Virus record (IMG/VR): IMGVR_UViG_3300002144_000433
Coordinates: 1 to 25,608 of that record
Origin: a virus
Reading direction: 5' to 3' (one strand)
DNA: 25,608 bases
Shown one piece after another: positions 718 to 21,322 of this stretch. The notes under the pieces were generated by a model. It saw only the letters and a program-made list of their open reading frames with translations, was not told the DNA's origin and ran no database searches. The translations under genes were made by a program, and so were the position numbers. Position 1 is the stretch's first letter, and each line of letters begins with the position of its first letter.

Positions 718-2115
718 TTACGGTTGCCCGCTCAAGTCCAACGGCTCGCCCGCAAGGTCTGGCGCTTCCTCTGTCACGCGGTCCATGTCGTTCTCCGTGT
801 CCAGATCGGGACGCAGGAACCCGCGCCGCTTACGTTCCTCATAATACGCCTCTTTTGATAGCAGGCCCAGCGCAACGTCTTGCTGCATCACATGCACCTC
901 TTGCGCGGTTAGCGGCATGACGCCAAAGTCTTTGTTCACGACAACCGTGATGTCCTGCTCAGGCAGTCCAGCGTAAAACGCCATCCACGTTAGCGCCTGT
1001 TCCAGCGCGTCCTTGAGATTATCGGCCATCATGGAAAGCGTGGATGTTTCCTTTGCGCTGTCCAGCACCGCACCCGTCGCTGTTTCATTGCTGGCGACAA
1101 GCAATTGCAATCCAAGCGCCTGCATTTGATATTCAAGGTCTTTTAGGTCAGTGCGGCCCGCGCCGATAGCTGCGCCGGAATGTTCCACCCATGACAGCTT
1201 GGCGTCCGTATCGCGTGACGTGACGGCTTGGCTTGCGCTAATGATAAGCGGTTCATCCTCACCACGGCCAGATGCAAACAGGATCGGCACCCGCGCGAAG
1301 TGCAGAATGTGGCGCTGGTCCGACTGCGACTGCCAGTGCGCTATGTTCACGTCTGCCAAGTCCTCAAGGACAGGTTCGCCCATGAAAAAGCCCGTGCGCT
1401 GCGCATAGAACGGAATAACCGTGATTTCTTCGGCATTGGTCTGGTATTCATCCACGACCAGCCATTCGTCTTTGTTGTTCTTGCGGTAGATTTCAACCGA
1501 AACCGCGCTGCCTTCACGCGATAGCACCCGCACCTGGTCCACGTTGATCTGTGAAAACGGGTCTTTCGGATCGTCCTCAGTCACGGATTCCATAATGCGC
1601 AGCATGGACAGAGCAAGCACGTTACCAAACAGCCCCGTCTTGAAGCCCAAGATGTCCTCCGCCCGCAAATGCACCATATATGGCCGCAAGCCTAGCGTTG
1701 CCGCCTGTGAGCGGGTTGTTTCGCCGTCACGTCGCGGCGCGTCAACCATGATGTAGGAAATGCCCGGAACAAAGGCATCTTTGAACACGTCAGACGCAAA
1801 GGTGCTTAGGTCTTGGCCCTGCATATTGATATTGTCGGCAAAGCCCTTTAGCCGCTCAGAACCCTCGGTGATTTCAATTGACTTGGAAAACACGCGGCCC
1901 GTCATGTCTTTGACCGTCTTGCGCATCCCGTTGAACAGCCACGAAGACGACAGACGCGCCTGATAGTCTTCGGGAGATTCTGCGACAAACTTGGGCAAAT
2001 ATGTCTTGCCAGCCCTGCGCATACCTTCAGTACCAGACATTAAAGCGCGGCCCTTTTCGGCAGCCTCGACTATTTCAGCCATGACGCCGGATCGCTTTTG
2101 GACTGTTTTTGACAT
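718..2115 (-). CDS. Phage portal protein (DUF4055-like)
   Basis: This 465-residue protein resembles the DUF4055 phage family, which occupies the portal position in head modules. The N-terminal third carries the recognisable stretch RRAGKTYLPKF, then YQARLSSSWLFNGMRKTV and GRVF. The middle is a mixed alpha/beta portal-like body and the C-terminus is acidic (VTEEAPDLAGEPLDLSG). The inferred role is the dodecameric ring at the capsid vertex through which TerL pumps DNA. In a standard order it would follow terL directly, but here an HNH gene separates the two, ending five bases before the portal ATG. The Shine-Dalgarno before the ATG is weak, so translation may depend on coupling to the upstream gene. 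Assignment rests on family resemblance plus position between TerL and MuF. Confidence 0.8.
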   Translation of the reverse strand: MSKTVQKRSGVMAEIVEAAEKGRALMSGTEGMRRAGKTYLPKFVAESPEDYQARLSSSWLFNGMRKTVKDMTGRVFSKSIEITEGSERLKGFADNINMQGQDLSTFASDVFKDAFVPGISYIMVDAPRRDGETTRSQAATLGLRPYMVHLRAEDILGFKTGLFGNVLALSMLRIMESVTEDDPKDPFSQINVDQVRVLSREGSAVSVEIYRKNNKDEWLVVDEYQTNAEEITVIPFYAQRTGFFMGEPVLEDLADVNIAHWQSQSDQRHILHFARVPILFASGRGEDEPLIISASQAVTSRDTDAKLSWVEHSGAAIGAGRTDLKDLEYQMQALGLQLLVASNETATGAVLDSAKETSTLSMMADNLKDALEQALTWMAFYAGLPEQDITVVVNKDFGVMPLTAQEVHVMQQDVALGLLSKEAYYEERKRRGFLRPDLDTENDMDRVTEEAPDLAGEPLDLSGQP

Positions 2116-2120
2116 ATTAT

Positions 2121-2681
2121 TTATCGCCCATGATTTTGGTGGAACTCGTGTTTGCGCTCGGCGTTTTGCCGCACCTGAATTGCGTCTTCAATACCTACAA
2201 AAGCGCCAAGAAACTTCCCGACACCATCGATCTTGATTTGGGCAATCCACTTTTTTTGCCGCTCATTCCACGAGACCCCAATGGTTCCGCTGGTGTTTGT
2301 GCTTGGCTTCTTCGCATTGCGGAGATTTTCAGTCCTCGTAACTGATCGCAGATTAGATGACCTGTTGTCCGTCCGGACGCCGTTGATGTGGTCTATGTCT
2401 GCGCTGGGCCATGCGCCATTCTGAATGGCCCAAATCACTCTGTGAGCCAGCAACGACCGGCCAGCAACAGCGCCTATGTGATAGCCGTTTTTCATCTTAG
2501 CCGTAAATGCGGGCTTGCCGGAGTATCTAGCGTTCCAGTTGTTGCAATTGCCAAGTGCGCCCCTGTAACCATCATTAAACATCCATGCCTGCCGCCGATT
2601 CCAGGACAGCTTTCCAGTCTCCGGATCATATGAAAGCAATTGACGCAGTAAGGTTGGACAAGGTAGGACTTCGTTAGCCAT
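2121..2681 (-). CDS. HNH endonuclease with C-terminal AP2 DNA-binding domain
   Basis: This is a 186-residue free-standing homing-endonuclease-type protein. Residues 80-115 hold the HNH core (LLAHRVIWAIQNGAWP, then DIDHINGVRTDNRSSNLR). Residues 130-175 hold an AP2-like DNA-binding domain (TSGTIGVSWNERQKKWIAQI, ending in a GxF-x-EDAI helix). HNH plus AP2 is a well-known phage homing endonuclease layout. The ATG is preceded by GGAG at suitable spacing. The gene separates terL from the portal gene and has no obvious structural role, so it is best read as a mobile insertion. It is one of three HNH genes clustered around TerL. A hairpin lies just upstream of its ribosome binding site. Confidence 0.85.
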   Translation of the reverse strand: MANEVLPCPTLLRQLLSYDPETGKLSWNRRQAWMFNDGYRGALGNCNNWNARYSGKPAFTAKMKNGYHIGAVAGRSLLAHRVIWAIQNGAWPSADIDHINGVRTDNRSSNLRSVTRTENLRNAKKPSTNTSGTIGVSWNERQKKWIAQIKIDGVGKFLGAFVGIEDAIQVRQNAERKHEFHQNHGR

Positions 2682-2712
2682 GGCGTGATCTCCATTCGAT
2701 CCGTTGGGGTGA

Positions 2713-2755
2713 AGCCCGTGTCGGTGTTGAAACCACCTATGCGGGCTGTTTTTTT
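2713..2755 (+). other. Two-tier hairpin followed by a T run, upstream of the HNH-AP2 gene
   Basis: The outer arms AGCCCG (2713-2718) and CGGGCT (2742-2747) enclose inner arms GGTG (2723-2726) and CACC (2734-2737). A run of T follows from 2749 on the + strand. In the + direction this looks like an intrinsic terminator, but the nearby genes all read leftward. It could instead be a structure in the leader of the HNH-AP2 mRNA that limits its translation or readthrough. Confidence 0.4.
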
Positions 2756-2768
2756 ATAGCACAACCAA

Positions 2769-4928
2769 TCAAAATTGCAACGAGGTGCTGGTCATTGACG
2801 GCTTAACAACTGGCATTTCGTAGGCCATCGGATAGCCAAAAGCGTCACAGTTTGAGACGATAACGCCGCCCAAATCAAAGCACCCATGATTAGGGACCGT
2901 GATGCAGTAAACGTCGCTAAGCCCGCCTTGCTTTATTTGCGCAACTTCTACCGCAATGGACTGAGGATTTGTATCGGTTGATCGTAAAGTCTTCGCCGCA
3001 TCCAGCGCAAACTCTGATTTCATTGTCGATACCAGATGCTCGGCGGGCAGCAGCCCTGCAATTTCGTCCGCAAAACATTGCTCTATCAACGAGGTTGCTT
3101 TTGAATGCACCCCCGCAATGTGTGCATGTGTGGTCTTTGGTTTTTGCGTGAAGCGCTGACCCAGTCGCCTTGTAATGTTCTCTGTGCCAGTCAGCACCCG
3201 CTTCGCTGGCGTGCCATACCTTTGATGCTTCAATGGCCTCTCTGGGCATTGGCCTTGTGTGTCCAGCGTGGTGGTGGCGCATGTGTTCCGACGCAGTGAT
3301 AAGCTCAAGGTTCCCGCCATTATTGTTTGCCCTATCGTGGTCAACATGGTGGATGTGCCAATCTTTGCCTCTTGGGATAGGCCCGTTATGAAACGCCCAA
3401 ACGTCTCTGTGTAGCCTTGCACCGTCTGCCTGAAAGTAGTTTCCGCAAAGATAGTATTTTGTTCCGTTGAAATCTTGCTGGGTGTCGCTGACAACGATGG
3501 GCTGCATAGGATGTCTCCGGCGGTTAATTCATCAGCCCGAACCCACCCAGATGAAGAAAGGATTTTGTGGTCTAATGTCACTCGGAAACTATAGCCGTTT
3601 GAAAGCGTAACCGCAAGCGTCCTTTCACCCTCTCGTTTCAACCCGCCGTTGACGTATTGCACTTCTTTGCCGAATGGTCCGGTCACTGTCCCTCGCTCTG
3701 GAATGCAATCAAACCTAGTCTGCTTCCCGTTGGCAAAAACCATCGTTTCCCCCGAAAAACACTGATGGTCAAGCCCCGTTGTCTTGTCGGGTTCGCCCTG
3801 CTTGTTGTAGGGCTGCTGTTCAAGGCATCGCGCTGTTTCTGGGCATGTGTCAGGGTTGACGAACACGCGGCCCCGCTGGAAGCCCATATTGACGGCCAGC
3901 ACACGATCCTTAACCCTTGGATTGCTTGGCTTGGCCCGTATGGCGTAGCCTGCTTGGCGCAGTAGACCGATGTCTGACAATGACGCGCCCTTGCTGCTTG
4001 TATTCTTGCCGCTTGCGTCGGGGTAGATCGTGACGCTGTGGCCCTCGTATCGCTCGCCCATTGTGGCAATCATGCTTGGCGTATCAACGCCGCCTTTGAT
4101 TTCATCGACGCAGTGCCAATCGTTTTCGCGCAGAACATAAGCACACGCGGCCATATTGCCTACGTTGAAGTCCATGCCCAGCTTGATCGGCTCACCGGGT
4201 TGCAATGTCTCGCGGCTGCGGTTGGTCTCGCGGTTATATGAGTTGTAAACGCTGCCCGATGTCAGGTTGGTAAACTCGCCCATCAGATAGGCGCTGATCA
4301 GTTCTTCCGGGTAGGTATCCTTGAGCGACTGGATATAATCTGGCGGCAGGTATTTGTTATCCTCCGTTCTGGCCCGGATTAATCGCCTGCCATCGCCCGC
4401 GTCTTTTACAAAAATGCGATACATCGCCTTGAAGCCTTCGGGCGTTGACACAATGACCATTTGCCGAACGTTGCCAGCCCGCAATCGACCCATGAGTTTT
4501 TCAAATGCTGAATATGCTAGGTTTGTTTTAGCTGTGTCGAATTCGTCCAAGATAACCCATGCGGCATTGACGCCAATCAGCCGGTCGAATCGCTCCATGC
4601 TTTTGCATATGATGCGGGTTTGCTTTCCCGCAGCGGTGCAATAGAAAATCATCTCCGACTTGTTGAAGTGAAACGGAATGCCGAATTCATCGAGCGCGGC
4701 CTCCACCTCTGGTATCAAGATTTGCGTCAAAAGAGGGAAGTTCGGTTCTGTAATTATACCATCTGATCCTGGGTTTAGTAGCGCCAAGGTGCAAGCCTTG
4801 CGGGCAACGGCGTATGTCTTGCCGCCGCCGTAGCCGCTCACAAGCCCTAGAATGCGCGTGGTGGTGTCCTCTATCAGATCAAACTGGTGCGGCAGTAGGT
4901 CTATTGTCCTAGTGTTTGCAGCTGTCAA
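2769..4928 (-). CDS. terL: Terminase large subunit (packaging ATPase-nuclease) interrupted by an intein
   Basis: The ORF has 719 codons. The exteins are residues 1-389 and 694-719; the intein is 390-693. The ATPase domain shows Walker A SGYGGGKT (31-38), Walker B VILDEFD (about 125-131) and coupling motif STPEG (161-165). The nuclease domain shows GMDF (D253), IYPDAS (D304) and the split motif GLDHQ/CDAFGY, whose Asp695 is the expected third metal ligand. The intein therefore sits inside the nuclease active-site motif, and splicing should be needed for packaging. The spliced protein would be about 415 residues, normal for a compact TerL. The start is a TTG at 4928, because no suitable ATG exists; the first codons overlap the end of the upstream HNH gene by 20 bases. 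A GGTGG lies just upstream. This start is the least certain part. Confidence 0.92.
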   Translation of the reverse strand: MTAANTRTIDLLPHQFDLIEDTTTRILGLVSGYGGGKTYAVARKACTLALLNPGSDGIITEPNFPLLTQILIPEVEAALDEFGIPFHFNKSEMIFYCTAAGKQTRIICKSMERFDRLIGVNAAWVILDEFDTAKTNLAYSAFEKLMGRLRAGNVRQMVIVSTPEGFKAMYRIFVKDAGDGRRLIRARTEDNKYLPPDYIQSLKDTYPEELISAYLMGEFTNLTSGSVYNSYNRETNRSRETLQPGEPIKLGMDFNVGNMAACAYVLRENDWHCVDEIKGGVDTPSMIATMGERYEGHSVTIYPDASGKNTSSKGASLSDIGLLRQAGYAIRAKPSNPRVKDRVLAVNMGFQRGRVFVNPDTCPETARCLEQQPYNKQGEPDKTTGLDHQCFSGETMVFANGKQTRFDCIPERGTVTGPFGKEVQYVNGGLKREGERTLAVTLSNGYSFRVTLDHKILSSSGWVRADELTAGDILCSPSLSATPSKISTEQNTIFAETTFRQTVQGYTETFGRFITGLSQEAKIGTSTMLTTIGQTIMAGTLSLSLRRNTCATTTLDTQGQCPERPLKHQRYGTPAKRVLTGTENITRRLGQRFTQKPKTTHAHIAGVHSKATSLIEQCFADEIAGLLPAEHLVSTMKSEFALDAAKTLRSTDTNPQSIAVEVAQIKQGGLSDVYCITVPNHGCFDLGGVIVSNCDAFGYPMAYEMPVVKPSMTSTSLQF
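2850..3761 (-). other. Intein (Hint splicing element) in TerL, residues 390-693
   Basis: The 304-residue intein begins with Cys390 (CFSGETMVF, block A). It has a block B TLDHKIL (Thr451, His454) and a following GWVRADELTAGDIL strand. It ends with a block F/G region DVYCITVPNHGCFDLGG then VIVSN, followed by Cys694 as the +1 nucleophile. Block G has Ser rather than the usual His before the terminal Asn, a known variation that may slow splicing. Between about residues 475 and 655 the intein frame has no recognisable endonuclease motifs and is rich in Thr, Gln and Ser. That stretch coincides with an HNH gene read in another frame. The family assignment is strong because both Hint ends are present and removing the segment restores a canonical DHxxDAxGY TerL motif. 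Confidence 0.93.
2917..3507 (-). CDS. HNH endonuclease with two zinc-finger motifs, nested out of frame inside the TerL intein
   Basis: The 196-residue product is read in the +2 frame relative to terL. Its N-terminus (FNGTKYYLCGNYFQ, ARLHRDVWAFHNGPIPRGKD) and the HNH core HIHHVDHDRANNNGGNLELI (51-70) match the free-standing phage HNH type. The C-terminal half holds two CxxC-type zinc-finger motifs (CTHCGGAF with FCGRNC, and CAGCGEDF with HCGRSC). The ATG at 3507 has its own Shine-Dalgarno, GGAG with a 7-base spacer. The gene starts just after the N-terminal Hint segment, and its TAG stop (2917-2919) overlaps the codons just before block F. It is inferred to be the homing endonuclease that spreads this intein, translated separately. 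Its recognisable motifs argue against a chance open frame. Confidence 0.88.
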   Translation of the reverse strand: MQPIVVSDTQQDFNGTKYYLCGNYFQADGARLHRDVWAFHNGPIPRGKDWHIHHVDHDRANNNGGNLELITASEHMRHHHAGHTRPMPREAIEASKVWHASEAGADWHREHYKATGSALHAKTKDHTCTHCGGAFKSNLVDRAMFCGRNCRAAARRASGIDNEIRVCAGCGEDFTINRYKSSVHCGRSCANKARRA

Positions 4929-5715
4929 AATGCCACCGCTTCATGTTTGAGACGCTGCCTATTTTTCCGCAGTTAGGGCATTCCGCTTTACGCTTTGCTT
5001 TCTCCGATATTTTGGCCCTTGTCGCGTCTGATTGCGACTTGCCAAACATGGGGTTTTTGTCGCCTGTTATTTTCGCGCCGTTCCCAAAGTTTGGGTTCTT
5101 ATCCCCGCGCGTATCATATGCGCCAGCCACGCCAGAAACCCGTTTCCGGTATCTTGTGTTCAGCGCCTTGAGCGCATCGCACGTTTCAACTAGGTCGCGG
5201 TCGATCCTGTTACGCACCGTCAAATCAACCGTGAACGGGCGCGGATTATAACTTCTGACAGAAGATATTATATAACCGACTTCGTTGTTTTTTTTCCCGT
5301 ATCTCGGATGGTTTTTTCCAGCAATAGACGGCCTAGGCCCACGCATTTTGGCCGACGCTTCTAAGGAATGCGTCTTCCCCCTGAATGGGTTGTTCTTCGT
5401 GTAATAGTCAGACCGCCATTCTGCGTCTTTCCTAGCTATCAAGTCATACGTTCGCGACGTTACATTGACGCCACGGGCCGATTTTGTATTTCCGCGCGAC
5501 ATATACGCCAATGCCGCCCACATTTTCCCGCCGTGGATTCTTGCCAGCAACCGATGCGCCACAAAATGCGCCTTTGGTGTAAGTCTGACGATATTGGACG
5601 GATCGTCACCACCGCCAAGGCTTCTTGGCAATATGTGGTGCCTTTCGGCGCACCCCTGCAAATCCCTCATCTTGAAGGTGCGCACAAGTTGTTCATAAGT
5701 TGCTTGATTGTCCAT
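4909..5715 (-). CDS. HNH homing endonuclease with NUMOD3-like repeats, between terS and terL
   Basis: The protein has 268 residues. Residues 24-57 give an HNH motif (ERHHILPRSLGGGDDPSNIV, then HFVAHRLL). Short Gly-Lys repeats follow, such as NPFRGKTHSLEASAKM and NPMFGKSQSDATRAKI, resembling NUMOD3 modules that bind DNA in homing endonucleases. The C-terminus has a zinc-binding look (CPNCGKIG, then HFDSCKH). The gene starts 15 bases after the terS stop with a poor ribosome binding site, and its last codons overlap the start of terL. It appears to have inserted at the terS-terL junction. The region is more AT-rich than its neighbours, in keeping with acquired DNA. Confidence 0.85.
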   Translation of the reverse strand: MDNQATYEQLVRTFKMRDLQGCAERHHILPRSLGGGDDPSNIVRLTPKAHFVAHRLLARIHGGKMWAALAYMSRGNTKSARGVNVTSRTYDLIARKDAEWRSDYYTKNNPFRGKTHSLEASAKMRGPRPSIAGKNHPRYGKKNNEVGYIISSVRSYNPRPFTVDLTVRNRIDRDLVETCDALKALNTRYRKRVSGVAGAYDTRGDKNPNFGNGAKITGDKNPMFGKSQSDATRAKISEKAKRKAECPNCGKIGSVSNMKRWHFDSCKH

Positions 5716-17047: not shown

Positions 17048-17242
17048 ATGACAACTCCTTGGAAGCGACACGTTAGAATTGGCGACTGCGACCTGTATCT
17101 GGGAGATTGCCTTGAGGTGATGCCCGCGCTTGGAAAGGTGGATGCTGTTGTTGCCTGCAAGCGCGTCCAGCAAGCATACGATCAGCCGGGCTTGTTCGTT
17201 GAAAAGCCAACACCACCAACACAAGAGGGCTTTGAATTATGA
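17048..17242 (+). pseudogene. Internally deleted remnant of an amino-methyltransferase gene
   Basis: The 64-residue ORF begins with a typical N6/N4 DNA methyltransferase N-terminus (RIGDCDLYLGDCLEVMPALG then KVDAVV), which in intact enzymes leads directly into TDPPY. Here it jumps at residues 35-36 (about 17150-17156) to ACKRVQQAYDQPGLF and VEKPTPPTQEGFEL, the typical C-terminal tail of such enzymes. The catalytic DPPY motif and nearly the whole enzyme body are gone, but the frame is intact and the stop still overlaps the helicase ATG as ATGA. It cannot be a working methyltransferase. The retained coupling suggests it is kept to translate the helicase. Confidence 0.78.
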
Positions 17243-19488
17243 CCCTGCAACGTGAAGACCTGCACGAATACCAACACCGCGCCGTTGATTACGTTATAAC
17301 CGAGGGTCGCTGCATGTTGGCCCTTGGGCTCGGCCTCGGTAAGACGACATCAACGCTGACCGCGATCAGCGACATGGTTGGTGCGGGTGTTGTCTCAAAG
17401 GTGCTGATTATAGCCCCCCTGCGCGTCTGCAATAGCGTCTGGGTGCAAGAGGCCCAGAAGTGGGAACACACGCGCCACCTGCGCGTCTCTGTGGCCACGG
17501 GAAGCGCTAAGGCGCGCACGACGGCGCTGTTCAAAACGGCTGACGTTTATGTCACGAACAAGGAAAACGTGCAGTGGATTATTGAGCGCGCCGGTAAGAA
17601 ATGGCCGTTCGATATGATCGTGATTGACGAAAGCAGCACATTCAAAAACAGCCAGTCAAAACGCTTCAAGGCACTGCGCAAAATGCTGCCGTTTGTAGAG
17701 CGGCTGGTTTTGCTGACAGGGACGCCCAGCCCGAACGGGTTGCAAGACTTATGGGCGCAGATGTTTCTTGTGGATCACGGCGAGCGTTTGGGCCGCACAC
17801 TGACGGGCTTTCGGGATCGGTTCTTTGACAAGGATTACATGGGCTACAAATACACGATCCGCGACGGGTCCGCATCAAAGATCGAGGGATTGGTCGCTGA
17901 TAAAATCATCCACATGAGCGCCGACGATTATCTCGACTTGCCCGACCGCATTGAAATCGACGTGCCTGTTGATCTTGGACCAAAGGCAACCGCGCAATAC
18001 AAAGAATTTGAGCGAACCTCACTGGCCGAACTGGATGACGGCGATGAAGTCGAGGCGATCAGCGCGGCAGTGCTGGCCAACAAGTTGATGCAGTTTTCAA
18101 ACGGCGCGCTTTACACCGACCCTAACGGCGCGTGGTCGGCTGTTCACTCCGCAAAGCTGGACGCTTTGTCTGATCTGGTGGACGACAACACCGGCGAAAC
18201 GATGCTGGTCGCTTACAATTTCAAAAGCGACCTGGCGCGCATCAAAGACAGGTTTCCGCAGGCGGTTGTTTTGGACAAAAGCCAAGACACGATTGATCGG
18301 TGGAACAGGGGCGAAATTGAGATGCTTTTGGCCCATCCCGCATGCTTACATCCAGCAACTGAAGTGTTGACTGAAAGGCGGGGTTGGGTTAAGATCATCG
18401 AAGTTGAAACAAGTGACCTTGTCTTTGACGGCGTGGAATTTGTTTCTCATTCGGGTTGTTCTTTTTCTGGGATAAAACCAGTTATTGAACGATTTGGCAT
18501 AACCATGACCCACGAGCACAAGATACTTGTGGGCGATGATTGGGTTAAGGGTCGAGATGTATACGATTGTGAACGAACAAGAGAGGTTGCGGCATACACC
18601 TACGCGGGTGATGACGCTTATCTTTGTGAAATGCTCAAACTGCGGCACGGAACAGTTTGTGGCAAAGCAGAACGTCCAAAGGGCGAACCGCGAGGGGCGC
18701 GAGAAATGCCAATTTTGTTGGGGAGAGGACCATCACAACATGACAGGCACTCGCATCTGGCGGATATGGCACGGGATGGTTCAACGATGCACCAAAACAT
18801 ATGGGACCAGCTTCGAAAGTTACGGGGGCGCTGGGCGCGGGGTCAGTCAGGACTGGTTGGCTTTCAAAAACTTTTATCGGGAAATGCGCGATGGTTACGA
18901 GGATCATTTGACGCTGGACCGCATCGACAACTCGCAGGGCTACAGCAAGGGAAATTGCCGCTGGGCAACGAACATGCAGCAACAGGCAAACAAAACCAAC
19001 AATCGCGTGGTGTATTATCTTGGGCAGGAAATGCACTTGGCCGAGTTTTGCCGAAAGGCTGGTGTGAGCAGGGGGGCCATATCACCAAGGCTTGCACTAG
19101 GAATGAGGGGGGACGAAGCGTTGGCAGACTACAAAAAAAGCAAATACCCGAAAGGTCGCAAATCTCGAAAGTCTATGACCTAGTTGACTGTGGGCCTCGC
19201 AGTCGGTTCGCCGTGCGAAACGCGGCGGGTGAGGTATTCATTTCTCACAATTCCGCCGGGCATGGGTTAAATCTGCAATCAGGCGGCGCGCTTTGCGTTT
19301 GGTTTGGCCTCAACTGGTCGCTTGAACTCACGCAGCAATTCAACGCGCGGCTTCACAGGCAGGGCCAGGGTCGCCCGGTGCGCATTGTGCGACTGCTTTG
19401 CACAGATACGATTGACGCGCGCGTTGCCGCTGTGCTGCGCGATAAAGACGCCACGCAATCATCACTGCTCGCTGCGCTCAAGCCGTAA
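17239..19488 (+). CDS. SNF2-type DEAD-like helicase interrupted by an intein
   Basis: The ORF has 749 codons. The exteins are residues 1-368 and 672-749; the intein is 369-671. Motif I is GLGLGKTT (30-37), motif II VIDESS (128-133), motif III LLTGTPSPNG (158-167). Motif V is split as AHPA/SAGHGLNLQ and motif VI is NARLHRQGQGRP (702-713). Removing the intein joins HPA to SAGHGLN, the usual sequence in phage SNF2 helicases. The mature protein would be about 446 residues. It is inferred to remodel forks or junctions together with the adjacent VRR-NUC nuclease. The ATG overlaps the methyltransferase remnant. Its last 220 bases are duplicated downstream. Confidence 0.92.
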   Translation: MTLQREDLHEYQHRAVDYVITEGRCMLALGLGLGKTTSTLTAISDMVGAGVVSKVLIIAPLRVCNSVWVQEAQKWEHTRHLRVSVATGSAKARTTALFKTADVYVTNKENVQWIIERAGKKWPFDMIVIDESSTFKNSQSKRFKALRKMLPFVERLVLLTGTPSPNGLQDLWAQMFLVDHGERLGRTLTGFRDRFFDKDYMGYKYTIRDGSASKIEGLVADKIIHMSADDYLDLPDRIEIDVPVDLGPKATAQYKEFERTSLAELDDGDEVEAISAAVLANKLMQFSNGALYTDPNGAWSAVHSAKLDALSDLVDDNTGETMLVAYNFKSDLARIKDRFPQAVVLDKSQDTIDRWNRGEIEMLLAHPACLHPATEVLTERRGWVKIIEVETSDLVFDGVEFVSHSGCSFSGIKPVIERFGITMTHEHKILVGDDWVKGRDVYDCERTREVAAYTYAGDDAYLCEMLKLRHGTVCGKAERPKGEPRGAREMPILLGRGPSQHDRHSHLADMARDGSTMHQNIWDQLRKLRGRWARGQSGLVGFQKLLSGNARWLRGSFDAGPHRQLAGLQQGKLPLGNEHAATGKQNQQSRGVLSWAGNALGRVLPKGWCEQGGHITKACTRNEGGRSVGRLQKKQIPERSQISKVYDLVDCGPRSRFAVRNAAGEVFISHNSAGHGLNLQSGGALCVWFGLNWSLELTQQFNARLHRQGQGRPVRIVRLLCTDTIDARVAAVLRDKDATQSSLLAALKP
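18343..19251 (+). other. Intein (Hint splicing element) in the SNF2 helicase, residues 369-671
   Basis: The 303-residue intein starts with Cys369 (CLHPATEVLTERRGWVKI, block A). It has block B ITMTHEHKILVGDDWVKG (Thr422, His425). It ends with KVYDLVDCGPRSRFAVRN and AAGEVFISHN, a regular block F/G with penultimate His670 and terminal Asn671. Ser672 is the +1 nucleophile. Between about residues 450 and 635 the intein frame is Gly/Arg/Gln-rich without endonuclease motifs; that DNA instead encodes an HNH protein in the +1 frame. All key splicing residues are present, so it should splice. Confidence 0.94.
18557..19183 (+). CDS. HNH-type endonuclease with zinc ribbon, nested out of frame inside the helicase intein
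   Basis: The 208-residue product is read in the +1 frame relative to the helicase. A zinc-ribbon (CSNC at 26-29, CQFC at 51-54) precedes GTRIWRIWHGMVQRCTK, SYGGAGRGVSQDWLAFKNFY and LTLDRIDNSQGYSKGNCRWA (118-137), the core of a common phage HNH family. A C-terminal HTH-like part follows (MHLAEFCRKAGVSRGAI). The chosen ATG has AAGGG five bases upstream; a TTG at 18527 is possible. The gene begins just after Hint block B and its TAG lies inside block F. It is inferred to be the homing enzyme of this intein, expressed separately. Confidence 0.87.
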   Translation: MYTIVNEQERLRHTPTRVMTLIFVKCSNCGTEQFVAKQNVQRANREGREKCQFCWGEDHHNMTGTRIWRIWHGMVQRCTKTYGTSFESYGGAGRGVSQDWLAFKNFYREMRDGYEDHLTLDRIDNSQGYSKGNCRWATNMQQQANKTNNRVVYYLGQEMHLAEFCRKAGVSRGAISPRLALGMRGDEALADYKKSKYPKGRKSRKSMT

Positions 19489-20111
19489 CGATTGACGCAA
19501 ATTGGCGCTTGACGGTGTGCATTTTGGCGCATAGCGTGGGGATAGAAACAAAGGAGGCCACCATGACACTAACCCACAAATACCTTGTAGAATTTGACGC
19601 GCGCCTTGGCGGGTTCACCGCCGAGGGCGAGACCCCCACATGCTTTGCCGATCTGCTTGAGGTCGTTTCGGAAAACGCTGAACTATATTCATCCGTCCGC
19701 ATCCTGCGCCTTGATTTTGAAGGCGGCGTTTTGGTCGGCCACGATGACAGCACCGACGTGATGATTAAGCGGATTGCAGCGGAATTGTCCCGACTTCACG
19801 CAGACTGCGCCCCTACCGTCTATGACTGGATCATGGCGCAGGCTGGCGAGGGCCGCGCATATGTCGGTTCAGACGATGAATGCGATATGCGCCGTGAAGC
19901 GGGGGCCGCGTGATGATTAAGTTTGATGTCCTAAATCGTTTTTCTGGCGCGGTGCAATTCACCGCAGAAATAAACTGCGAAGCCGGATCAAGTCGATCTG
20001 TTAAGTTGGGTCTTGCCGTTGAGTGGGCATACCTCCACGGGGCCAGCCTCGGCGGGGCCAACCTAAGCGGGGCCAGCCTCGGCGGGGCCAACCTCAGCAG
20101 GGCCGACCTCA
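19268..20111 (+). repeat. Tandem duplication, copy 1 (844 bp)
   Basis: This segment is repeated at 20159-21002 with an offset of 891 bases. It covers the last 221 bases of the helicase gene, the 116-residue gene and the start of the pentapeptide gene. I found one mismatch within it (C19535 versus T20426). Beyond 20111 the copies diverge inside pentapeptide repeats. Confidence 0.95.
19563..19913 (+). CDS. Hypothetical acidic protein (116 aa), duplicate copy 1
   Basis: The ATG at 19563 has an excellent AAAGGAGG ribosome site. The product begins MTLTHKYLVEFDARLGGFTA and contains a helical-acidic middle (DDSTDVMIKRIAAELSRLHA) and a Cys in the C-terminal DDECDMRREAGAA. I do not recognise the family. 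Its protein is identical to that of copy 2. The stop overlaps the pentapeptide gene start as TGATG. Upstream in-frame starts lie in the helicase-gene spacer and lack a ribosome site. Confidence 0.65.
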   Translation: MTLTHKYLVEFDARLGGFTAEGETPTCFADLLEVVSENAELYSSVRILRLDFEGGVLVGHDDSTDVMIKRIAAELSRLHADCAPTVYDWIMAQAGEGRAYVGSDDECDMRREAGAA

Positions 20112-20161
20112 ACGGGGCCAGCCTCGGCGGGGCCGACCTCAGCAGGGCCGACCCGGCCTAA
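19913..20161 (+). pseudogene. Truncated pentapeptide-repeat protein, duplicate copy 1
   Basis: The first 66 or so codons match the intact copy at 20804-21322. The product shows MIKFDVLNRFSGAVQFTAEI, then pentapeptide units such as ASLGG, ANLSG, ANLSR, ADLNG. It stops at the duplication junction after ADPA, losing the last few repeats and the entire C-terminal domain. The 82-residue product might still fold as a short right-handed helix, but it is best seen as a by-product of the tandem duplication. Confidence 0.75.
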
Positions 20162-20379
20162 ATCTGCAATCAGGCGGCGCGCTTTGCGTTTGGTTTGGCC
20201 TCAACTGGTCGCTTGAACTCACGCAGCAATTCAACGCGCGGCTTCACAGGCAGGGCCAGGGTCGCCCGGTGCGCATTGTGCGACTGCTTTGCACAGATAC
20301 GATTGACGCGCGCGTTGCCGCTGTGCTGCGCGATAAAGACGCCACGCAATCATCACTGCTCGCTGCGCTCAAGCCGTAA
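20159..20379 (+). pseudogene. Duplicated C-terminal fragment of the SNF2 helicase gene
   Basis: This is an exact second copy of the last 73 helicase codons (from LNLQSGGALCVWFGLNW onward, including the motif VI RLHRQGQGRP and the stop). It has no upstream helicase sequence and no start of its own. A GTG at 20023 opens a chimeric frame through the pentapeptide DNA into it, but that has no visible ribosome site. Confidence 0.85.
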
Positions 20380-20453
20380 CGATTGACGCAAATTGGCGCT
20401 TGACGGTGTGCATTTTGGCGCATAGTGTGGGGATAGAAACAAAGGAGGCCACC

Positions 20454-20804
20454 ATGACACTAACCCACAAATACCTTGTAGAATTTGACGCGCGCCTTGG
20501 CGGGTTCACCGCCGAGGGCGAGACCCCCACATGCTTTGCCGATCTGCTTGAGGTCGTTTCGGAAAACGCTGAACTATATTCATCCGTCCGCATCCTGCGC
20601 CTTGATTTTGAAGGCGGCGTTTTGGTCGGCCACGATGACAGCACCGACGTGATGATTAAGCGGATTGCAGCGGAATTGTCCCGACTTCACGCAGACTGCG
20701 CCCCTACCGTCTATGACTGGATCATGGCGCAGGCTGGCGAGGGCCGCGCATATGTCGGTTCAGACGATGAATGCGATATGCGCCGTGAAGCGGGGGCCGC
20801 GTGA
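20454..20804 (+). CDS. Hypothetical acidic protein (116 aa), duplicate copy 2
   Basis: The coding sequence and protein match the copy at 19563-19913, with the same AAAGGAGG ribosome site. The single base difference between the copies (20426) lies in the upstream region, so it could only affect expression. The stop overlaps the start of the intact pentapeptide gene. No family is recognised. Confidence 0.65.
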   Translation: MTLTHKYLVEFDARLGGFTAEGETPTCFADLLEVVSENAELYSSVRILRLDFEGGVLVGHDDSTDVMIKRIAAELSRLHADCAPTVYDWIMAQAGEGRAYVGSDDECDMRREAGAA

Positions 20805-21322
20805 TGATTAAGTTTGATGTCCTAAATCGTTTTTCTGGCGCGGTGCAATTCACCGCAGAAATAAACTGCGAAGCCGGATCAAGTCGATCTGTTAAGTTGG
20901 GTCTTGCCGTTGAGTGGGCATACCTCCACGGGGCCAGCCTCGGCGGGGCCAACCTAAGCGGGGCCAGCCTCGGCGGGGCCAACCTCAGCAGGGCCGACCT
21001 CAGCGGGGCCAGCCTCGACGGGGCCAACCTAAGCTGGGCCAACCTCAGCAGGGCCAACCTAAGCTGGGCCAGCCTCAGCAGGGCAAGCGGCCTTAATGAT
21101 TGGGTCAAGTGCATTCAAATTGAGCAATACGAAATTTGCTACACGGACACTGTTTTGCAGATCGGCTGCGAGAGCCATCCGATATCGGAGTGGCGGGATT
21201 TTGATGACGCGCGGATTGCGCGAATGGACGGAAAATCTGCGCTCAGGTTTTGGCGCAAATACAAAGATTGGATATTCAGAACAATTGAATTTTGCCCAGC
21301 CAAAACAACGGGGGCCGCGTGA
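20804..21322 (+). CDS. Pentapeptide-repeat protein
   Basis: The 172-residue product has an N-terminal domain (MIKFDVLNRFSGAVQFTAEI, about 40 residues). About a dozen A(N/D/S)LxX pentapeptides follow, such as ASLGG, ANLSG, ADLSG, ANLSW and ANLSR. A C-terminal domain (GLNDWVKCIQIEQYEICYTD, then EWRDFDDARIARMDGK) ends the protein. Such repeats fold as a right-handed quadrilateral beta-helix; some mimic DNA and inhibit gyrase, but most phage versions have no known role. The repeats are encoded by near-identical GGGGCCxxCCT units, which favour slippage and recombination. The start overlaps the upstream stop as TGATG. Confidence 0.82.
   Translation: MIKFDVLNRFSGAVQFTAEINCEAGSSRSVKLGLAVEWAYLHGASLGGANLSGASLGGANLSRADLSGASLDGANLSWANLSRANLSWASLSRASGLNDWVKCIQIEQYEICYTDTVLQIGCESHPISEWRDFDDARIARMDGKSALRFWRKYKDWIFRTIEFCPAKTTGAA

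Follow-up and report, generated by a model that had tools for sequence, protein, structure and literature searches.

Introduction

Must the homing endonuclease of an intein share the reading frame of the intein that carries it? The question is raised by the terL gene of a viral DNA of 25,608 nucleotides (IMG/VR record IMGVR_UViG_3300002144_000433, positions 1–25,608), the whole of which we refer to as the window. Canonical inteins (LAGLIDADG or in-frame HNH, e.g. PI-SceI) normally carry the endonuclease within their own polypeptide, as a domain read in the same frame, at the insertion site that has been discussed for such inteins (PMC6801210). The terL element resembles them in that its Hint domain is split by the endonuclease at the loop between blocks B and F, and in both cases homing is presumed. 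It departs from them in that the endonuclease is a different protein read in a different frame. A preliminary description, made from the sequence alone, had reached this reading and proposed that a free-standing HNH gene was inserted out of frame into the intein.

Results

A class-1 intein in terL contains an HNH gene in another frame

The ORF at 2769–4928 (minus strand) encodes a large terminase of 719 amino acids, identified from the ORF list, the Pfam domains Terminase_6N (1.5e-14) and Terminase_6C (2.3e-8), and PHROG phrog_2 (2.5e-38). Its ATPase and nuclease domains are interrupted by an intein of 304 amino acids (2850–3761, minus strand) that extends from C390 to N693 of the ORF, with junctions that read ...GLDHQ/CFSGETMV upstream and VIVSN/CDAFGYP downstream. 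The N-extein (residues 1–389; 3762–4928, minus strand) is 88% identical to those of the relatives L003 and L004 and terminates in ...GLDHQ within an RNase H-like nuclease motif. The C-extein (2772–2849, minus strand) begins with CDAFGYPMAYE. The N-terminal Hint half (3495–3761, minus strand) contains block A (CFSGETMV) and block B (TLDHKIL, with the T codon at 3576–3578 and the H codon at 3567–3569), and the C-terminal Hint half (2850–2954, minus strand) contains blocks F and G (VYCITVPNHGCFDLGGVIVSN); both were assigned from motifs and AlphaFold2. The segment that separates the two halves (2955–3494, minus strand) is a disordered linker in the intein frame and encodes most of the HNH protein in the other frame.

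The terL intein meets the sequence criteria for class 1, namely C1, a block B TxxH motif (TLDH), a terminal N304 and a +1 Cys; its penultimate residue is Ser, not His. Pfam Intein_splicing matched residues 432–693 of the ORF at 2e-8, slightly below the gathering cut-off. The insertion site is a conserved motif, and the insertion is absent from the close homologues L004–L011. Both halves reside on the single ORF 2769–4928, which leaves the criterion for a split intein unmet; the canonical criterion of an in-frame endonuclease domain between blocks B and F is likewise unmet, since the HNH lies in another frame. An AlphaFold2 model, for which the alignment input was 49 natural inteins, assigned a pLDDT of ~97 to the first ~88 and last ~35 residues and of ~50 to the ~180 residues between them. 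Foldseek matched the ordered part of the model to the Ssp DnaB mini-intein (6frg, 7.2e-5) and also to the Mtu RecA and gp41-1 inteins. By these predictions, the element satisfies the criterion of a Hint fold.

The nested gene (2917–3507, minus strand; 196 codons) occupies frame −1 (= +2) relative to terL, such that the intein frame equals the HNH frame +1. Its product contains an HNH_3 domain (5.6e-13; phrog_15471, 2.1e-37) and two Cys4 zinc fingers, and its stop codon is located inside the C-terminal Hint half. The catalytic H/N residues and eight Cys are conserved, and the criterion of an HNH motif with zinc-binding cysteines is thus met. AlphaFold2 modelled the protein with a mean pLDDT of 93.7; a Foldseek search of the PDB with this model gave no significant match, the best being the homing endonuclease I-HmuI (1u3e, E 0.24). 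A Shine-Dalgarno (SD)-like GGAG (3515–3518, minus strand) lies 7 nt before the HNH ATG (3505–3507), is conserved in L003, and doubles as part of the codons for a Gly-Asp pair of the Hint domain. The product is likely an HNH_3-type homing endonuclease, although its cleavage of an intein-less allele is inferred.

Together, these findings confirm the observation that 2850–3761 encodes a class-1 intein in terL with an out-of-frame HNH gene nested inside it; splicing activity is inferred. The preliminary description was correct to the base in its coordinates and in its reading of the HNH, Cys390, TLDHKIL and VIVSN/C. Its further claims of a 196-residue HNH in the +2 frame with its own GGAG, and of an HNH stop that overlaps the C-terminal Hint region, also held. 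An alternative is that the insertion is a group I intron or another ORF-carrying RNA element, and HNH_3 enzymes are indeed common in introns. However, the ORF is open throughout and bears intein motifs. Rfam produced no match over 2400–5200 at E <= 1, and none at gathering score in all of L003 or of the window. We regard this alternative as all but excluded.

The HNH frame is under purifying selection

L003, an independent viral contig from a different sample, has this intein at the identical position, with both frames kept and no gap over 719 residues. A sequencing frameshift as the cause of the double frame is excluded by this comparison, and the refutation that the preliminary description had allowed for, an error concealing an in-frame HNH, accordingly failed. 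Identity between the window and L003 is 88% in the N-extein, 71% in the N-terminal Hint half and 73% in the C-terminal Hint half; the linker segment is 46% identical at the amino acid level in the intein frame and 66% in the HNH frame. Differences fall at HNH codon positions 1/2/3 in the numbers 50/42/90. The per-frame dN/dS (NG86) that had been suggested as a check is 0.18 for the HNH frame and 1.4 for the intein frame, and over six pairs the values range from 0.18 to 0.42 and from 1.06 to 1.67, respectively. The position bias and dN/dS between the window and L003 indicate that the HNH frame is selected as a protein and the intein frame only for openness. Purifying selection thus acts on the HNH frame, whereas the intein frame there is kept free of stops and shows no further constraint. 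Two caveats apply: NG86 estimates are biased where frames overlap, and this exact TerL allele is represented by only two members, the window and L003.

L004–L011 encode TerLs ~88% identical to that of the window without the intein and without the nested HNH; the window's N-extein is equally close (88%) to intein-free L004 and intein-bearing L003. The empty site in L004 and L011 reads DHQ/NDAAGY, with Asn rather than Cys at +1, which suggests that the +1 Cys probably arrived with the intein.

A helicase gene in the window shows the same arrangement

A second host gene, an SNF2-family helicase (17239–19488, plus strand; SNF2-rel_dom 4.7e-24, phrog_62 2e-139), contains an intein of 303 amino acids (18343–19251, plus strand) recognized by its splicing motifs: C1, a THEH block B, a terminal N and a +1 Ser. 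Our nesting test placed an out-of-frame HNH gene inside it (18527–19183, plus strand; phrog_3377, 1.6e-43). This HNH belongs to a different family, and the helicase case uses the other relative frame, in which the intein frame equals the HNH frame +2.

Nested HNH genes occur in many inteins

Single-protein scans with each of the two window HNHs as query yielded almost no matches. A survey seeded by HNH sequence alone provided 99 loci that could be judged. The HNH gene lay wholly within a long ORF of another frame in 71 of these, the remaining 28 were separate HNH ORFs of 169–254 codons, and none of the 99 was an in-frame HNH intein domain. All four splicing motifs (C1, TxxH, terminal N and +1 C/S) were present in 67/71 nested loci; over the nested set, the block B T was conserved in 67/71, the block B H in 70/71 and the C-terminal N in 70/71. 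One locus, L153, was scored as nested and dropped because it has no intein motifs. Hosts of the nested HNHs are mostly TerL, including those of Tetrasphaera phage TJE1, Acinetobacter phage Highwayman and Rhodobacteraceae phage MD07; DNA polymerase A and SNF2 helicase are also hosts, and the polymerase-type version is found in APSE-1, SFCi1 and Caulobacter phage GB2A. The HNHs of the helicase and polymerase cases form a separate family and use the other relative frame compared with the TerL case, which indicates that nesting arose more than once.

A second survey, blind to HNH, used seven Hint N-halves as queries and returned 74 further loci. Nesting out of frame was found in 58 of them, all with one shared frame relation, and no endonuclease was in frame. 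The rest comprised 10 mini-inteins (130–166 aa), 3 truncations at contig edges and 3 longer inteins with an antisense endonuclease in the middle: an HNH in the inteins of L225 (intein at 3028–4083, minus strand) and L242 (intein at 1185–1808, minus strand), and a DUF559-type nuclease in that of L254 (intein at 3232–4224, minus strand). The preliminary description had held that inteins kept with a broken HNH frame would count against its reading. The mini-inteins, which belong to the same Hint group and lack an HNH, fit gain or loss of the HNH and do not refute it.

Contigs of bacterial and archaeal genomes added ~10 further nested cases. More distant in-frame HNHs with a C-Hint were also found there (L278, L283); the nesting test is therefore able to see the in-frame class. 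Overall, the nested arrangement occurs at more than 100 loci in many phages and in contigs assigned to bacteria and archaea, and the uniqueness implied by the preliminary description has to be amended. Because the samples were seeded from nested examples, they give no prevalence figure for inteins overall. Claims of prevalence are further limited because a Hint-wide alignment was too diverse for scanning and a smaller Hint group was used instead. Within these bounds, an intein with an out-of-frame nested HNH appears to be a common and barely described form of mobile intein.

A bolder reading places phage inteins, and those of terminases in particular, in a widespread class that has yet to be described, whose homing endonuclease comes from a gene translated on its own and lying out of frame or antisense within the linker. 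Such inteins would arise by repeated capture of free-standing HNH genes, and the arrangement would be the default in this Hint group. We lean toward this reading by a small margin.

The surveys also bear on the possibility that the splicing domain is dead, or that the insertion is never removed from TerL, a fate proposed for the ShiLan domain of a methylase, with the HNH alone active. The penultimate Ser in place of His favors this view, as does the non-splicing proposed in PMC11855218 for the element described there. However, C1, TxxH, the terminal N and the +1 Cys/Ser vary little or not at all over 70 relatives. TerL is normally required for DNA packaging, and the insertion falls within its nuclease motif. 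Moreover, the ShiLan domain lacks the Hint motifs that the terL insertion has. A dead splicing domain is thus very unlikely.

As a separate observation, a single TerL ORF in a Clostridium MAG (L269, 1331–4732, plus strand) is interrupted by two inteins, and both have an HNH nested in them out of frame.

Open frames exceed chance, and the HNH is likely initiated independently

In our chance model, the HNH protein is fixed, codons are drawn from local usage, and P is the probability that the intein frame stays open. P was 0.057 for the terL case and 7e-6 for the helicase case. Chance is not excluded for the window's terL alone and is rejected on the whole set: the summed log10 P over 70 nested cases is −230, and among the 28 free-standing relatives ~0.06 open-frame cases were expected and none was seen. 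An explanation by GC content was also rejected, as the nested cases cover 27–68% GC. A TGA in the intein frame is unavoidable wherever Met precedes I, M, T, N or K; this applies to 0/109 Met in nested HNHs versus 30/97 in free-standing ones (Fisher 9e-12), and free-standing relatives are consequently often incapable of an open intein frame. The third frame on the same strand was open in 0/70 nested cases.

An SD energy of −5 or stronger was found at the best HNH start in 59% of cases versus 23% of control ATGs, which were taken from the same frame within the extein (p 2e-8). For some cases the test takes the best of several candidate starts, which favors the nested set. By the energy cut-off, ~40% of nested genes have no strong SD, and the site is weak at the best ATG in a low-GC group (L111, L143–L171). 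A stop codon in the HNH frame lies a median of 12 nt upstream of the best start (68 genes). Independent initiation of the HNH is the best reading and a likely one; it is inferred, and translation has not been shown.

A rival route of expression is programmed −1 ribosomal frameshifting from the terL frame, which would generate a TerL-HintN-HNH fusion and no separate protein. In its favor, nearly all TerL cases have their HNH offset by −1 from the intein frame, the direction that such a shift would need. However, no slippery heptamer lies between the upstream stop of the HNH frame and the start in any of 68 cases, where the median room is 12 nt. In the helicase and DNA polymerase genes, nesting follows the other frame relation, and many HNH starts have an SD-like site before them. 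Frameshifting is very unlikely.

Nested and free-standing HNHs are interleaved

The two states are intermixed in a tree of 93 HNHs, with ~12 changes between nested and free, at least 4 of which are forced by well-supported branches. The HNHs of the window and L003 are sister (100/84) to the free-standing HNH of Salmonella phage Shemara, which adjoins terL; other free-standing relatives were also found adjoining terL. The tree and these neighboring relatives support the earlier proposal that a free-standing HNH was inserted out of frame.

Proximity to terL raises the possibility that the HNH assists the terminase in packaging, in the manner of HK97 gp74, and is nested in terL by happenstance, rather than being a homing enzyme. 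HNH proteins beside terminases can help cos cleavage (PMC10448857), and relatives of the nested HNH do adjoin terL. However, TerLs ~88% identical lack both the intein and the nested HNH, other nested HNHs reside in DNA polymerase and helicase genes, and the distribution is patchy. A cofactor role is very unlikely to account for the gene.

Discussion

The double-frame anatomy, its conservation, the pattern of selection and the patchy distribution are established by sequence. They are best explained by a mobile intein that harbors its homing endonuclease as a distinct gene, nested within it in another reading frame, an explanation that we consider likely; splicing, internal initiation, cleavage and homing are inferred. 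The comparative data likewise support the preliminary suggestion that overlapping codons specify a splicing protein and a separate homing enzyme.

In the mechanism we propose, ribosomes in the terL frame would produce one long precursor. Its two Hint halves would fold together across the disordered linker of ~180 residues, which would be nothing more than a meaningless translation of the HNH gene, and splicing of the intein would render TerL active. Other ribosomes would initiate at the internal SD and ATG past block B to yield free HNH protein. This protein may cut intein-less terL alleles near the insertion motif, with repair then copying in the whole intein. Selection would retain the HNH frame as a protein and the intein frame merely as stop-free sequence. 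Repeated origin would reflect HNH genes moving back and forth between free-standing positions and the intein loop that accepts an endonuclease.

Several known systems share parts of this arrangement. Arsenault, Gosselin and Gogarten (2025; PMC11855218) described out-of-frame HNH insertions in phage DNA methylases, found no intein in them, and argued that the ShiLan domain is neither intein nor intron. Like the terL insertion, the ShiLan element keeps the host ORF open and encodes, in a different frame, a zinc-finger HNH of ~195 residues; its spread by homing is inferred. ShiLan is devoid of Hint motifs, whereas a full Hint splicing domain is encoded in the terL frame and an SD precedes the HNH there. 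The statement in the preliminary description that no example had been described was therefore only partly right: an out-of-frame HNH in a phage gene has been published, explicitly without an intein.

Fractured genes, reportedly described by Dassa et al. in 2009, are split inteins whose halves flank an endonuclease gene that stands on its own. They too encode the endonuclease as a separate protein between IntN and IntC, whereas the terL intein is one continuous ORF for which splicing in cis is inferred. A split version exists in the terL of Vibrio phage 1.245.O (L087), where TerL-IntN, HNH and IntC-TerL are on separate ORFs. APSE-1 (L178) provides a closer parallel: RefSeq annotates the HNH CDS (P46) inside the DNA polymerase CDS (P45), and our nesting test shows it to be out of frame in an intein-bearing ORF. 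It differs from the terL case in host gene, HNH family and relative frame, and groups with the helicase case of the window.

The literature that we searched held no paper describing an intein with an out-of-frame endonuclease. Outside that search is a preprint by the ShiLan authors' group (10.1101/2025.01.02.630785), cited in PMC11855218, on the "non-canonical architecture" of actinobacteriophage inteins, in which overlapping frames are called frequent. Priority is accordingly uncertain, and the preprint may possibly anticipate part of our findings.

If our interpretation is correct, the picture of mobile inteins changes, as a splicing protein and its homing enzyme need share neither polypeptide nor reading frame. 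Separate frames would explain how the endonuclease can be freely gained and lost without breaking splicing, and would open a path by which split inteins could arise. It would also follow that a large number of homing endonucleases escape standard annotation, which misreads their out-of-frame translation as protein. The arrangement also provides a natural long gene overlap in which one frame is constrained only against stops, useful in studies of overlap evolution, and the tolerated disordered linkers of ~180 residues may be of use in intein engineering.

Other features of the window

Two HNH genes of homing type flank terL, one at 2121–2681 (minus strand; phrog_99) and the other, a NUMOD3 gene, at 4909–5715 (minus strand; phrog_655). 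The NUMOD3 gene overlaps the start of terL and is present in intein-free relatives as well. The segments 19268–20158 and 20159–21049, which reach from the C-extein of the helicase to an ORF with pentapeptide repeats, constitute an apparent head-to-tail direct duplication of 891 bp, identical over the first 300 nt, that may be real or an assembly artefact.
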